A stretch of DNA of 64,000 nt from Hydrogenophaga sp. (GTDB lineage: Bacteria > Pseudomonadota > Gammaproteobacteria > Burkholderiales > Burkholderiaceae_C). Positions within the stretch are counted from its first letter, which is position 1. Every line of letters begins with the position of its first letter. The stretch spans positions 62,001 to 126,000 of the forward strand of contig NZ_JADMKB010000037.1 in the NCBI RefSeq assembly GCF_018780075.1, written 5' to 3'. A program made the position numbers and the translations under genes. Shown in pieces: positions 44,995-47,976 of this stretch. Below the pieces are notes generated by a model. The model ran no database searches. It was not told where the DNA came from and saw only the letters and a program-made list of their open reading frames with translations.

Positions 44995-45226
44995 GGGTCT
45001 ATCTCCTTGTCGTGGGTGGAACAACGCCCAGCGAGGCCGCCCAAACACAGGCCGGACCCGCTGAGACGAGGGTCACCTTACGCCCGTTCGCGGAGGGCCG
45101 TCAATTGTTCTGGGCTATGCGCAGCATTGCGCGAGGCTATGGGCAGCACCCAACTGATAACCGTTCGCAGCGCCATCGACAAGCCCTCGGGAAACCCTCA
45201 AACTGGCGCGGACACCGGCCAGCAAA

Positions 45227-45247
45227 GAATTTCGTTTAGATAAATTC
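45227..45247. promoter_or_regulatory. AT-rich inverted repeat upstream of VOC gene
   Basis: GAATTT (45227-45232) and AAATTC (45242-45247), spacer 9 nt, 33 nt before the VOC start codon. It is locally AT-rich and placed where an operator or promoter is expected. Confidence 0.35.
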
Positions 45248-45279
45248 GTTATGCTCCGTTGAATCACAGGAGACACACC

Positions 45280-45888
45280 ATGAACACCGCCCTGCCCCCG
45301 CCCGCCGCCGTTCAGCAGCTGCACCACTACGCCTACCGGGCCAAGGACGCCGAGGAAACGCGCCGCTTCTACGAGGACATCCTGGGTTTGCCGCTGTACC
45401 ACATCATCCAGAGCGACGTGGTGCCCAGCACGGGCGAGTACTGCCCGTACACGCACTTCTTTTTCCGCCTGCAAGATGGTTCGTTCATCGCCTTTTTCGA
45501 CCTGGGCGACGATGAGGCCGCGCTGCCGAGCCCGAACACGCCGAAGTGGGTGAACCACATCAGTTTCCGCGTGAACACGGTGCAGGAGCTGGAAAACACC
45601 AAGGTGCGGCTGCAGGCGCACGGTGTGGAGGTGCTGGGCGTGACGGACCACCACATCTTCAAGAGCATCTATTTCTTTGACCCGAACGGCATCCGGATGG
45701 AGCTGACCGCGCAGCTGGCGGATGAGTTCGAGATGCTGCAGGAGAGCAAGACGGCGCACGCGAGGCTGGCGGAGTGGAACGCACGCAAGGAGCAGTGGCG
45801 GCGCGAGCGGGCCGAGGGCAAGTCGTCTGCGCCGTTGAAGCCGCAGCAGAACGACCGGCCTGAGTTTGTGGGTCGTTCTTTGGCTTGA
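45280..45888 (+). CDS. VOC family protein (glyoxalase/extradiol dioxygenase fold)
   Basis: 202 aa. Two beta-alpha-beta-beta-beta repeats; AVQQLHHYAYRAKDAEETRR (metal His), YEDILGLPLY, THFFFRLQDGSFIAFFDLGD, WVNHISFRVNTVQELE (metal His) and DPNGIRMELTAQLADEF (metal Glu). So an HHE metal site seems intact. The last ~50 residues are charged and probably unstructured. Clear ribosome site CAGGAGA. It lies upstream of a class A flavin hydroxylase and may act on a ring-hydroxylated product, but the two genes are separated by two large palindromes. Confidence 0.85.
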   Translation: MNTALPPPAAVQQLHHYAYRAKDAEETRRFYEDILGLPLYHIIQSDVVPSTGEYCPYTHFFFRLQDGSFIAFFDLGDDEAALPSPNTPKWVNHISFRVNTVQELENTKVRLQAHGVEVLGVTDHHIFKSIYFFDPNGIRMELTAQLADEFEMLQESKTAHARLAEWNARKEQWRRERAEGKSSAPLKPQQNDRPEFVGRSLA

Positions 45889-45930
45889 CCCGATGTGGGT
45901 TGGCATTGACCTTGCCGTTGGCATTACTCC

Positions 45931-46038
45931 GGTCTGCGGCGGCCGGGGTGACCGGCTCCGCTCGTGTCCCCCGCCAACGGCTTCGCCGTTGTCTCCTCCT
46001 TTACCTCGCTGCGCCGGTCACCCCGGCCGCCGCAGACC
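45931..46038. repeat. Large palindrome element A (25-bp perfect stem, 58-nt loop)
   Basis: Arms 45931-45955 and 46014-46038 are perfectly complementary over 25 bp. The loop (45956-46013) starts CTCCGCTCGTGTCCCCC, contains a minihairpin CAACGGC-TTC-GCCGTTG and ends TCCTCCTTTACCTCGCTGCG. The same loop ends, but not the same stem, occur inverted in element B. Confidence 0.92.
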
Positions 46039-46086
46039 TCTTTGGCGCGCACACGTTGGGTACCCGTCCGCTCAACCACATGTGGT

Positions 46087-46190
46087 GGCTCGGTAGGGCA
46101 TGGCGCTCTGCGCAGCGAAGTAAAGGAGGAGGCACGGCGCAGCCAAGCCGGGGGACATGAGCGGAGCAGAGCGCCATGCCCTACCGAGCC
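46087..46190. repeat. Large palindrome element B (25-bp perfect stem, 54-nt loop)
   Basis: Arms 46087-46111 and 46166-46190, perfectly complementary over 25 bp, stem unrelated to A (contains GGTAGGGCATGGCGCTC). The loop reverse complement begins TCCGCTCATGTCCCCCGG and ends CTCCTCCTTTACTTCGCTGC, matching loop A in inverted orientation. A 12-bp palindrome ACCACATGTGGT abuts its left arm. Confidence 0.92.
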
Positions 46191-46245
46191 CGCGAGAAAG
46201 ATGAGCGAAACCTGAACCAGCCAAACAAGACAGAGGACGACAAAG

Positions 46246-47976
46246 ATGCAGCACAACACATACAAAGAAGCAGCCCACACCAACAGCTACGAGTTCACCC
46301 AGGGCAGCGGCTACGTGCTGCCCGAATACCCCTTCGTCCCGCCACCCGAACTCAGCAGCGAACAGACCACCAGACACCCGGTGGTCATCGTCGGCGGCGG
46401 CATCACCGGTCTCACCCTCGCCTGCTCGCTCTCGCGCCTCGGCGTGCAAGCCGTGCTGCTCGACGAAGACAACACCGTCGGCGTCAAAGGCGCCTCGTCG
46501 CGCGGCATCTGCTACACCCAGAAATCGCTCGAAATCTTCGAGCGCCTCGGCATCTTCGAGCGCATCGCGGCCAAAGGCATCCAGTGGAGCGTGGGCCGCA
46601 CCTTCGCCGGCGACGACGAGGTCTACAGCTTCGACCTGCGCCAGCAGGGCAACTTCCACCTCTCCAGCCAGCCCGCCTTCATCAACATCCAGCAGTTCTA
46701 CATCGAGGGCTACCTCGTGGACCGCATCCAGGCGCTGGGCGCGGTCGAGTTGCGCTGGCAAAACCGCCTCACCGCCTTCGAGCAGAACGACCAGTACGCC
46801 ACGCTCACCGTCGACACCCCCGCCGGCAGCTACCGCATCGAAGCCGAGCACGTGATCGACGCCACCGGCTCCAACAGCCCACTGCGCAAGTGGCTGCAGA
46901 TCCCCGCCGACACCAAGCGCGGCGACGACCGCTGGTGCATCGCCGACGTGCGCTTCACGAAACAGCCACCGGTCGAGCGCCACACCTGGGTCGAAGCCCC
47001 GTTCAACGAGAACCGCGCCGTCTGGCAGCACCTGATGGCCGACGACGTCTGGCGCATCGACTACCAGATGGCGCCCAACGCCGACCCCGAACACGTGAGC
47101 CGCGAAGACGTGGTGCGCGAGCGGCTGGCGCGCCAGTTCGGCCCCGACGCGGGTGTCGAGATCGTCTGGGTCGGTCCCTACGCCTACCGCAGCGAGTGCG
47201 TGCACCGCATGCGCGAGGGTCGCGTGTTCTTCATGGGCGACTCGGCCAAGGTCGTCAGCCCCTTTGGCGCGCGCGGCGGCAACACCGGCGTGTCCGACGC
47301 CGACAACCTGGCCTGGAAACTCGCCGCCGTGCTGCAGGGCAAGGCGCACCCCAGCCTGCTGGAGAGCTTCAACGACGAGCGGCTGGAGGCAGCCCGCGAG
47401 AACGTGCGCGTCACGCACCGCACCGCGCGTTTCCTGCGCCCGGCCGACGGAATCGAGCGTGTGTTCCGCCACGCCGTGATCGGCCTGGCCAAACAATTCC
47501 CCTTCGCGCGCCCCATGGTCAACACCGGCCGCATGGCCGTGGCCAACCCCTACAGCGGCTCCGGTGCCTGCACCTACGCCCACACAGACCGTGGCCGCAG
47601 CGCGGCCGGCCAGAGCGTGCAGAACGTGCGCTTCACCTGGGCCGACGGCGGCGAAGGCACGGTCAACCGCCTGCTCGACTGGGCGCATGGCGACCTGCTG
47701 CTGCTGGTGTTCGGCGACCAGCCCGCCGCGGCGCTGCAGCGGGTGCGCCGCCTGTGCGCCGACGCACCGCTGCGCGCGGTGCAGGTGGTGCCAACAGAGG
47801 GTCGCTCGCAGTGTGTGGAACACGTGCTCGACCCCAAGGGCCACCTGCAGGGCGCCTGCCATGTGTTCGGCCACGCCTGGGCGCTGGTGCGGCCCGACGG
47901 CTACCTGGCCGCCACCGGCGAGGCGGTGGACGGCCGGCTGGTCGCCGCCATCGAACGCTCACTCGGCCTGCGCTGA
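46246..47976 (+). CDS. Class A FAD-dependent aromatic hydroxylase
   Basis: 576 aa, PheA/TfdB-type flavoprotein monooxygenase. FAD motif VVIVGGGITGLTLACSLSRL (about residue 45), DG-like VIDATGSNSPLRKWL, GD motif RVFFMGDSAKVVSPFGARGG, then DNLAWKLAAVLQGKAHPSLL. A C-terminal thioredoxin-like domain (about 450-576: DLLLLVFGDQPAAALQRVRR, ALVRPDGYLAATGE) matches phenol hydroxylase-type proteins. Uses NAD(P)H and O2 to hydroxylate an aromatic ring; substrate unresolved. DUF2783 follows 16 nt downstream. Ribosome site GAGGA. Confidence 0.9.
   Translation: MQHNTYKEAAHTNSYEFTQGSGYVLPEYPFVPPPELSSEQTTRHPVVIVGGGITGLTLACSLSRLGVQAVLLDEDNTVGVKGASSRGICYTQKSLEIFERLGIFERIAAKGIQWSVGRTFAGDDEVYSFDLRQQGNFHLSSQPAFINIQQFYIEGYLVDRIQALGAVELRWQNRLTAFEQNDQYATLTVDTPAGSYRIEAEHVIDATGSNSPLRKWLQIPADTKRGDDRWCIADVRFTKQPPVERHTWVEAPFNENRAVWQHLMADDVWRIDYQMAPNADPEHVSREDVVRERLARQFGPDAGVEIVWVGPYAYRSECVHRMREGRVFFMGDSAKVVSPFGARGGNTGVSDADNLAWKLAAVLQGKAHPSLLESFNDERLEAARENVRVTHRTARFLRPADGIERVFRHAVIGLAKQFPFARPMVNTGRMAVANPYSGSGACTYAHTDRGRSAAGQSVQNVRFTWADGGEGTVNRLLDWAHGDLLLLVFGDQPAAALQRVRRLCADAPLRAVQVVPTEGRSQCVEHVLDPKGHLQGACHVFGHAWALVRPDGYLAATGEAVDGRLVAAIERSLGLR

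Follow-up and report, generated by a model that had tools for sequence, protein, structure and literature searches.

Two large inverted hairpins lie between two plus-strand genes of a Hydrogenophaga sp. genome, within the stretch of 64,000 nucleotides analysed here (the window). The upstream neighbour is an open reading frame that starts with the ATG at 45280 and stops at 45888, and the downstream neighbour occupies 46246–47976; an earlier note on this DNA named them, without a domain search, as genes for a VOC protein and a flavin hydroxylase. The source assembly is a draft of 5.39 Mb in 191 contigs. Hairpin I is found at 45931–46038 and hairpin II at 46087–46190, and both the coordinates and single-stranded DNA folding bear out the earlier description of two large palindromes in opposite orientation, 48 nt apart. 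Both stems are perfect, as described; the length given for both, 25 bp, is correct for hairpin II, whereas the stem of hairpin I has 26 bp. The loops measure 56 nt (45957–46012) and 54 nt (46112–46165). Folding gives z = -9.9 (I) and -7.8 (II) for the purine strands and z = -10.5 (I) and -8.8 (II) for the pyrimidine strands, and none of 200 shuffles matches the stability of either hairpin.

The earlier note regarded the loops as conserved, and two motifs do recur in both. The 'loop' is not a plain one, however, but is itself structured: the two conserved motifs form the opposing sides of an internal loop whose pairs covary, and each hairpin has a variable inner stem-loop between them (Table 1). 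The motif CTCCTCCTTTACYTCGCTGC occurs twice in the window versus 0.00 expected. The motif TCCGCTCRTGTCCCCCG, with up to three mismatches, has three matches versus 1.03 expected, which is weak by itself as 9 of 100 shuffles also reach three; its two exact matches are the loops of hairpins I and II. Model R1, which has 104 positions and lets the stem letters vary freely, matches hairpin I at 45933–46036 on the minus strand (101.1 bits, E 2.3e-23) and hairpin II at 46088–46189 on the plus strand (98.3 bits, E 1.2e-22), each hairpin being part of the model's own alignment.

Table 1. Features of the twin hairpins (positions in the window; core sequences are those of the purine strand)
Feature	Position	Strand	Purine strand	Basis or remark
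Hairpin I, outer stem arm 1 (26 bp, perfect)	45931..45956	-		stem pairing, ssDNA fold
Hairpin I, core side	45957..45973	-	CGGGGGACACGAGCGGA	inside model R1 match
Hairpin I, inner stem-loop (variable, paired)	45974..45992	-		inner helix 89.1% paired in 65 aligned copies
Hairpin I, core side	45993..46012	-	GCAGCGAGGTAAAGGAGGAG	loop motif
Hairpin I, outer stem arm 2	46013..46038	-		stem pairing, ssDNA fold, model match
Spacer between hairpins (48 nt)	46039..46086	.		median of 130 twins likewise 48 nt
Hairpin II, outer stem arm 1 (25 bp, perfect)	46087..46111	+		stem pairing, ssDNA fold
Hairpin II, core side	46112..46131	+	GCAGCGAAGTAAAGGAGGAG	loop motif
Hairpin II, inner stem-loop	46132..46148	+		ssDNA fold
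Hairpin II, core side	46149..46165	+	CGGGGGACATGAGCGGA	loop motif
Hairpin II, outer stem arm 2	46166..46190	+		stem pairing, ssDNA fold, model match

The two hairpins represent a dispersed non-coding element of about 260 bp, and the hairpins are also found singly. In each, an outer stem of 24–26 bp is followed by a purine-rich internal loop that is conserved and an inner stem-loop that varies; one genome has stems of up to about 45 bp (L361, by eye). The earlier note proposed a search for further copies, and many are found. In the own genome, the core motif CTCCTCCTTTACYTCGCTGC has 18 matches with up to two mismatches and its reversed control none, and model R1 detects 21 hairpins in the examined stretches, including the two of the window and one partial hairpin. 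With up to one mismatch, 47 of 60 genomes of the genus have the core motif, and so do 13 of 300 genomes of the order; both tallies count the own genome. At the level of the taxonomic family, a covariance model detects the element in 183 of 399 genomes, representing 80 of 141 genera. As genome-wide model searches scored nine or ten candidates per genome under strict filters, the counts for the family and for the class are lower bounds; genome G001, for example, has no motif match and four model matches. At the class level five of 369 genomes are positive: the own genome, a member of the genus, two genomes of one other family, and G379, whose weak match (E 2.3e-4) may be due to chance. The match of this E value at L518 1501–1574, from a remote genome of the class, lies in an AT-rich region with repeated palindromes and is probably a different repeat family. 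Named records from outside the Burkholderiales that carry the element include Stenotrophomonas, Luteimonas, Lysobacter and Pseudoxanthomonas. Hairpins with the look of those of Xanthomonadaceae also occur in two records titled Bacillus subtilis SK7B5 (L039 and L072), whose label or assembly may be wrong. No phage matches the element query, and four of 72,556 plasmid records do so, each over 20–27% of the query.

No Rfam family reaches its gathering score on the element at 16 loci; the only family found there, sX13 (L496 1837–1950), is outside the hairpins. Five further loci show no match, and positions 45000–47000 of the window yield, at E ≤ 1, two eukaryotic families far under the cut-off and none above it. 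One of these two, mir-3138, overlaps the element and scores 28.5 bits against a cut-off of 90 (E 0.061). No description or name of the element was found in a literature search that was thin on subscription journals.

Among 267 elements with enough flanking sequence, 130 are '+-' twins as in the window and 134 are single hairpins, with one '-+' pair and two triples making up the rest. The number of singles is an upper bound, as a twin whose partner has a strongly altered core is scored as single. The element does not include the VOC and hydroxylase genes: five of 17 readable VOC sites lack it, and other copies are found at other genes.

A second check proposed in the earlier note concerned the complementarity of other stems, and the stems are indeed complementary. 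Among 170 non-redundant hairpins, drawn from 308 distinct ones with no filter on pairing, 78% of positions over 26 bp form Watson–Crick pairs, compared with 39% when arms are swapped between hairpins (the highest of 50 swaps is 41%) and 28–32% when arms are slid. An alignment of 65 copies contains 63 of 66 listed hairpins and the two of the window, with three references omitted. Here 89.3% of cells are paired, and there are 791 two-sided changes versus 226 in shuffled versions. The listed hairpins had been preselected for 15 or more of 24 pairs and thinned to less than 60% arm identity; the preselection raises the percentage paired and affects the variety of pair types less. Covariation is 0.845 compared with 0.188 for shuffled and at most 0.162 for slid versions, and 23 of the 24 outer pairs show every one of the four Watson–Crick types. 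Of five whole-structure measures, four are higher than in any of 500 shuffles; the fifth, the number of pairs with a two-sided change (36 vs 32.8), is equalled by one of the 500. All five are higher than in slid versions.

The core also has a definable structure. Its conservation is partly built in, since loci were fetched via the core motif, and the following counts come from 473 distinct hairpins that have 15 or more of 24 pairs, without thinning for relatedness. Tandem G.A/A.G pairs are found in 346 of them, and G:C/A:T stands there instead in 76. The pair p8:q10 is A:T in 331, G:C in 119 and C:G in 18. A non-canonical pair between the GG tracts is A.G in 440 and the swapped G.A in 23, the remainder including five GG, three AA and two CG. 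Two further proposed core pairs are less consistent: p2:q16 is Watson–Crick in 335 of 473, and p5:q13 is Watson–Crick in 429 and GA or GG in 43. To judge from its letters, the G-rich core could adopt a purine-pair helix or a two-layer quadruplex.

Stem mismatches reveal a pronounced difference between the two strands. The 154 hairpins, out of the 170, that have 15 or more of 24 pairs contain 292 wobbles on the purine strand and 40 on the pyrimidine strand; read on the pyrimidine strand these are 292 A.C/C.A and 40 G.T/T.G, the A.C/C.A being G.T or G.U on the purine strand. Individually, 126 hairpins lean to purine-strand wobbles and five in the opposite direction. The wobble fraction is 0.880 versus 0.598 (sd 0.010) for swapped arms, and beyond the stems these letter pairs show the reverse leaning (262 vs 533). 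Purine–purine mismatches, as seen on the purine strand, also exceed pyrimidine–pyrimidine mismatches (96 vs 29). From the wobble bias and the mismatch excess, the purine strand therefore looks like the strand that is required to fold. The conserved feature is thus the fold of the purine strand alone, GCAGCGAAGTAAAGGAGGAG ... CGGGGGACATGAGCGGA. That the family, its fold and its strand bias exist is hardly open to doubt.

The bias is the same whichever way the neighbouring genes run, gene directions being those of a simple custom gene finder without a check against annotation. Between tandem genes, the ratio of purine- to pyrimidine-strand wobbles is 90:14 in 44 sense hairpins and 88:8 in 47 antisense hairpins; it is 143:26 in convergent and 37:6 in divergent settings. 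Single hairpins alone give 32:8 in sense and 33:3 in antisense, and those in tandem spacers have no strand preference (25 sense, 21 antisense). The equal bias in sense and antisense speaks against mRNA of the neighbouring genes as the folded molecule and points to a DNA strand instead. This leaves two options, single-stranded DNA or an RNA made from the element's own promoter. A simple scan of this one locus found no sigma-70-like site in 45800–46320.

Orthologous sites show how the stems change. Two sites were compared, the VOC site in 12 species and a site beside recJ in seven, and changes (given as VOC + recJ) were pooled over all pairs and are non-independent. In 753+148 cases both arms differ such that one Watson–Crick pair replaces another, and in 133+37 both arms differ with at least one non-Watson–Crick state. 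Single steps to a purine-strand wobble number 221+92 = 313, those to a pyrimidine-strand wobble 17+4 = 21, and other one-arm changes 86+33. This fits stems that evolve by stepwise compensation on one strand. The earlier suggestion of selection on structure is borne out by the compensated stem changes, the one-strand wobble intermediates and the covarying core pairs.

With loci matched on the minus strand left out, the readable VOC sites comprise 12 with the element and five without (L377, L379, L381, L394, L396). Two of the 12 are partial: L380 has only hairpin I and L397 only hairpin II. At the recJ site of the own genome (L404, G000:C104, about 2450–2540) only hairpin I is present, and a GC-rich repeat, GGCTTTGCCGGGCC ... 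GGCGGCGCGGGGG, stands where the relative L405 has hairpin II. A similar GC-rich repeat is found without hairpins in L428, and one lies beside a single hairpin in L017. These repeats may be BRE-like.

Copies of the element differ from genome to genome in how alike their stems are. The own-genome copies are diverged, with stems that are perfect yet unlike each other, as the earlier note observed for the two hairpins of the window. This does not extend to all genomes. In Luteimonas terricola, a 288-base query gives 33 matches with 80% coverage or more and 86–100% identity, on many contigs and in part cut by contig ends, and here the stems are alike at different places, i.e. they are carried along with the copy. 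One Oxalobacteraceae genome has 38 single hairpins in which the proximal stem is much alike and the outer part differs. The diverged copies of the own genome and the sites common to several species give the family the appearance of an old one with occasional bursts; as many species have some sites in common, present movement is shown only indirectly. The ends of 16 L. terricola copies were taken and 11 placed, of which three were misplaced by the anchor; the other eight have no sharp ends, and no target-site duplication was found at these eight usable copies. No clean pair of occupied and empty sites was found. By eye, four L. terricola copies (L484, L488, L492, L508) start close behind an apparent intrinsic terminator, and several are bordered by additional repeats, GGGAATGGCGCGCCATT and GAAGCAGACACTCCTCGTCGAAACCG.

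The elements favour convergent spacers and avoid divergent ones: 94 are convergent, 99 tandem and 23 divergent, compared with a background of 115, 283 and 138. Of 242 elements, 16 are unclassifiable and 10 possibly intragenic. The median distance from stem edge to stop codon is 51 nt (287 distances). In the Oxalobacteraceae genome, convergent genes flank 24 of 38 hairpins, or 18 of 27 as classified by the general gene finder. Insertion just beyond terminators was considered as a rule and rejected. At all 261 elements there are 48 inward and 20 outward terminators, and control windows 400–530 bases away have 18 and seven; the ratio is the same, and therefore no general insertion rule applies. 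Terminator orientation is 11 inward versus one outward in a Luteimonas/Caldimonas set and three versus six in the Oxalobacteraceae genome.

A partner gene was sought in several ways. None of 76 stretches with Y1_Tnp genes (about 71 distinct genes) matches model R1 at E ≤ 1, and five of 18 hairpin-bearing genomes, whose completeness is not given, have no Y1_Tnp match, among them L. terricola with its 79 pattern matches. Y1_Tnp is also present in genomes without motif matches, and a Y1 or RAYT protein was rejected as the partner. Within the genus, a Y1_Tnp match is present in 51 of 60 genomes (37 of 38 good ones), in single copy in all but two of the 51; that of the own genome is at G000:C11:30965-31252 and has relatives. 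This gene looks like a domesticated RAYT-like gene. Clustering of 664 predicted proteins from 118 loci gave 23 listed clusters that, judged by eye from sequence starts and without a domain search, resemble ordinary chromosomal genes, and a recurrent neighbour gene was likewise rejected. The element adjoins genes that are acyl-CoA-carboxylase-like by their sequence starts in five records (L053, L065, L067, L078, L095), which suggests an old shared site. In Hydrogenophaga pseudoflava, hairpins I and II stand 1.3 kb apart at L319 1677–3141 (G370:C12) and enclose a gene for an Mrr-type restriction endonuclease (Pfam Mrr_cat 5.4e-39, Mrr_N 1.2e-21). At L320 1559–2699 (G370:C16) of the same species they are 0.9 kb apart, and they enclose a small frame that has no Pfam match, with letters resembling the ends of integron cassettes. 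An integron partner was rejected despite one cassette-like enclosed gene, as none of 20 stretches surrounding integron-integrase-like matches carries the element.

Several known repeat families invite comparison. REPIN/BIME elements with their RAYT genes, as described in passages of PMC2817692, are likewise extragenic pairs of inverted palindromes with many copies and preserved pairing, and the same passages suggest selection for complementary mutations in REPs; the 130 '+-' twins are such inverted extragenic pairs. REPs are also located at 3′ ends (extracts of PMC3733652), as is the present element. In these descriptions, a REP hairpin has 20–40 nt, compared with about 105 nt here, and the stem is the conserved part of REPs, whereas here it is the internal purine loop, and the stems differ within most genomes seen. 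The short fixed REP palindrome tagged GTAG or CGTC was not encountered, the absence of the tag being judged by eye, and no RAYT (Y1_Tnp) gene was found flanked by the present palindromes in the 76 stretches. The element is therefore termed REPIN-like. Inspection of Y1 genes recovered the Stenotrophomonas REPs printed in a table of PMC2817692 at L266, L278, L284, L287 and L288, and thus has a working positive control.

TIRtrons and their TIRYTs, according to portions of PMC3733652, have long, partly self-complementary inverted repeats that often form close dimers, and their motif GGGGWSAS resembles GGGGACA[T/C/G] of the present core. In TIRtrons the repeats flank the TIRYT gene; here none of the 76 Y1 stretches matches model R1. 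Inverted repeats at Y1 genes, where found, are of the GGGGTCAG type, printed REPs or others, and not the present element, and many stretches have none; membership in the TIRtrons was rejected. The BRE, another small and mostly intergenic repeat, is present in Bordetella and Comamonadaceae, and differs in its length of 75–91 bp, its tandem arrays and its occasional location within genes (parts of PMC3110155). The single hairpins are possibly related to the BRE.

The element also resembles MITEs in having short, non-coding, dispersed copies. Many near-identical copies are found in L. terricola only, and the fixed-letter terminal repeats and target duplication of MITEs were not found in the eight usable copies of that species. 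Integron attC sites act as a folded single strand with conserved structure and variable letters. The present element shares the folded single strand and the variable letters with them, and differs in location, as none of the 20 integrase-like stretches carries it.

The mechanism preferred here, single-stranded DNA read by an enzyme in trans, has about an even chance of being correct. The purine strand would act as single-stranded DNA, exposed for example during replication, and a structure-reading enzyme supplied in trans would recognise the core and the helices and not the stem letters. Stem letters would then be free to drift, as nothing beyond pairing and a few positions would count. The twin might be a non-autonomous mobile unit similar to REPIN/BIME, with one readable hairpin on each strand. 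Against this, the searches of Y1, integrase and neighbour genes found no candidate enzyme, a promoter missed by the simple scan would also give a bias independent of neighbours, and a wobble bias of this kind could also come from mutation that favours one strand. The main competitor of the single-stranded DNA mechanism is a structured RNA, in which the purine strand serves as a 3′-end or stability element or as a small RNA, its wobbles being G-U pairs. Covarying stems and non-canonical core pairs are typical of structured RNAs, and the avoidance of divergent spacers and the median of 51 nt from the stop codon agree with it. However, the bias is equal in antisense (88:8; singles 33:3) and persists between divergent genes (37:6), single hairpins have no sense preference (25 vs 21), and the scan of 45800–46320 for a sigma-70-like site at one locus and the Rfam comparison at 16 loci at gathering score were both negative. 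A structured RNA is thus judged unlikely, though worth keeping in mind.

Double-stranded or cruciform DNA, serving as a two-way terminator or as a palindromic binding site for a nucleoid or topology protein, accords with the long, nearly perfect stems, with the 3′-end location and with the convergent setting of 24 of 38 hairpins in the Oxalobacteraceae genome. In a cruciform, though, the two strands are equivalent and no strand bias is expected, and the observed 292:40 makes this explanation quite improbable. There is a similarly slim chance that the bias arises by mutation, on a strand exposed by the element, and not by selection. The biased changes are mostly of the transition type, as such a process would have it, but the 791 two-sided changes and the swap of A.G to G.A would be left unexplained, and so would the 96 purine–purine versus 29 pyrimidine–pyrimidine mismatches on the purine strand. 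The earlier note had also raised the idea that each stem is copied from local sequence, or, in a variant, that the arms are equalised by template switching. The perfect and dissimilar stems of the own-genome copies and the stems of about 45 bp in L361 (by eye) might suggest as much. The idea fails, however, on the alike stems of L. terricola copies at different places and on the stepwise, compensated differences at the two orthologous sites, with their 313 purine-strand versus 21 pyrimidine-strand wobbles (pooled, non-independent), and it predicts neither core covariation nor strand bias; as the origin of the stems it is very improbable. Arm correction is possible as a helper process.

A further and tentative proposal, itself rather doubtful, is that the element represents a new class of mobile single-stranded DNA hairpins, read by shape and by a G-rich internal-loop motif, with an enzyme that is not a Y1 transposase. 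The motif would be GGAGG opposite GGGGG with the swappable A.G, and its guanines would suffice for a two-layer quadruplex. Such a family would spread across the Burkholderiales and into the Xanthomonadales while its stem letters drift freely.

Bacterial interspersed palindromes are known by their fixed letters, and letter searches therefore easily miss a family with variable stems. In the present family the wobble pairs reveal the folding strand without any transcript. This raises the question of which protein, if any, reads the core. A reader that proved to be a new hairpin-specific enzyme would add to the single-strand DNA mobility systems known so far.
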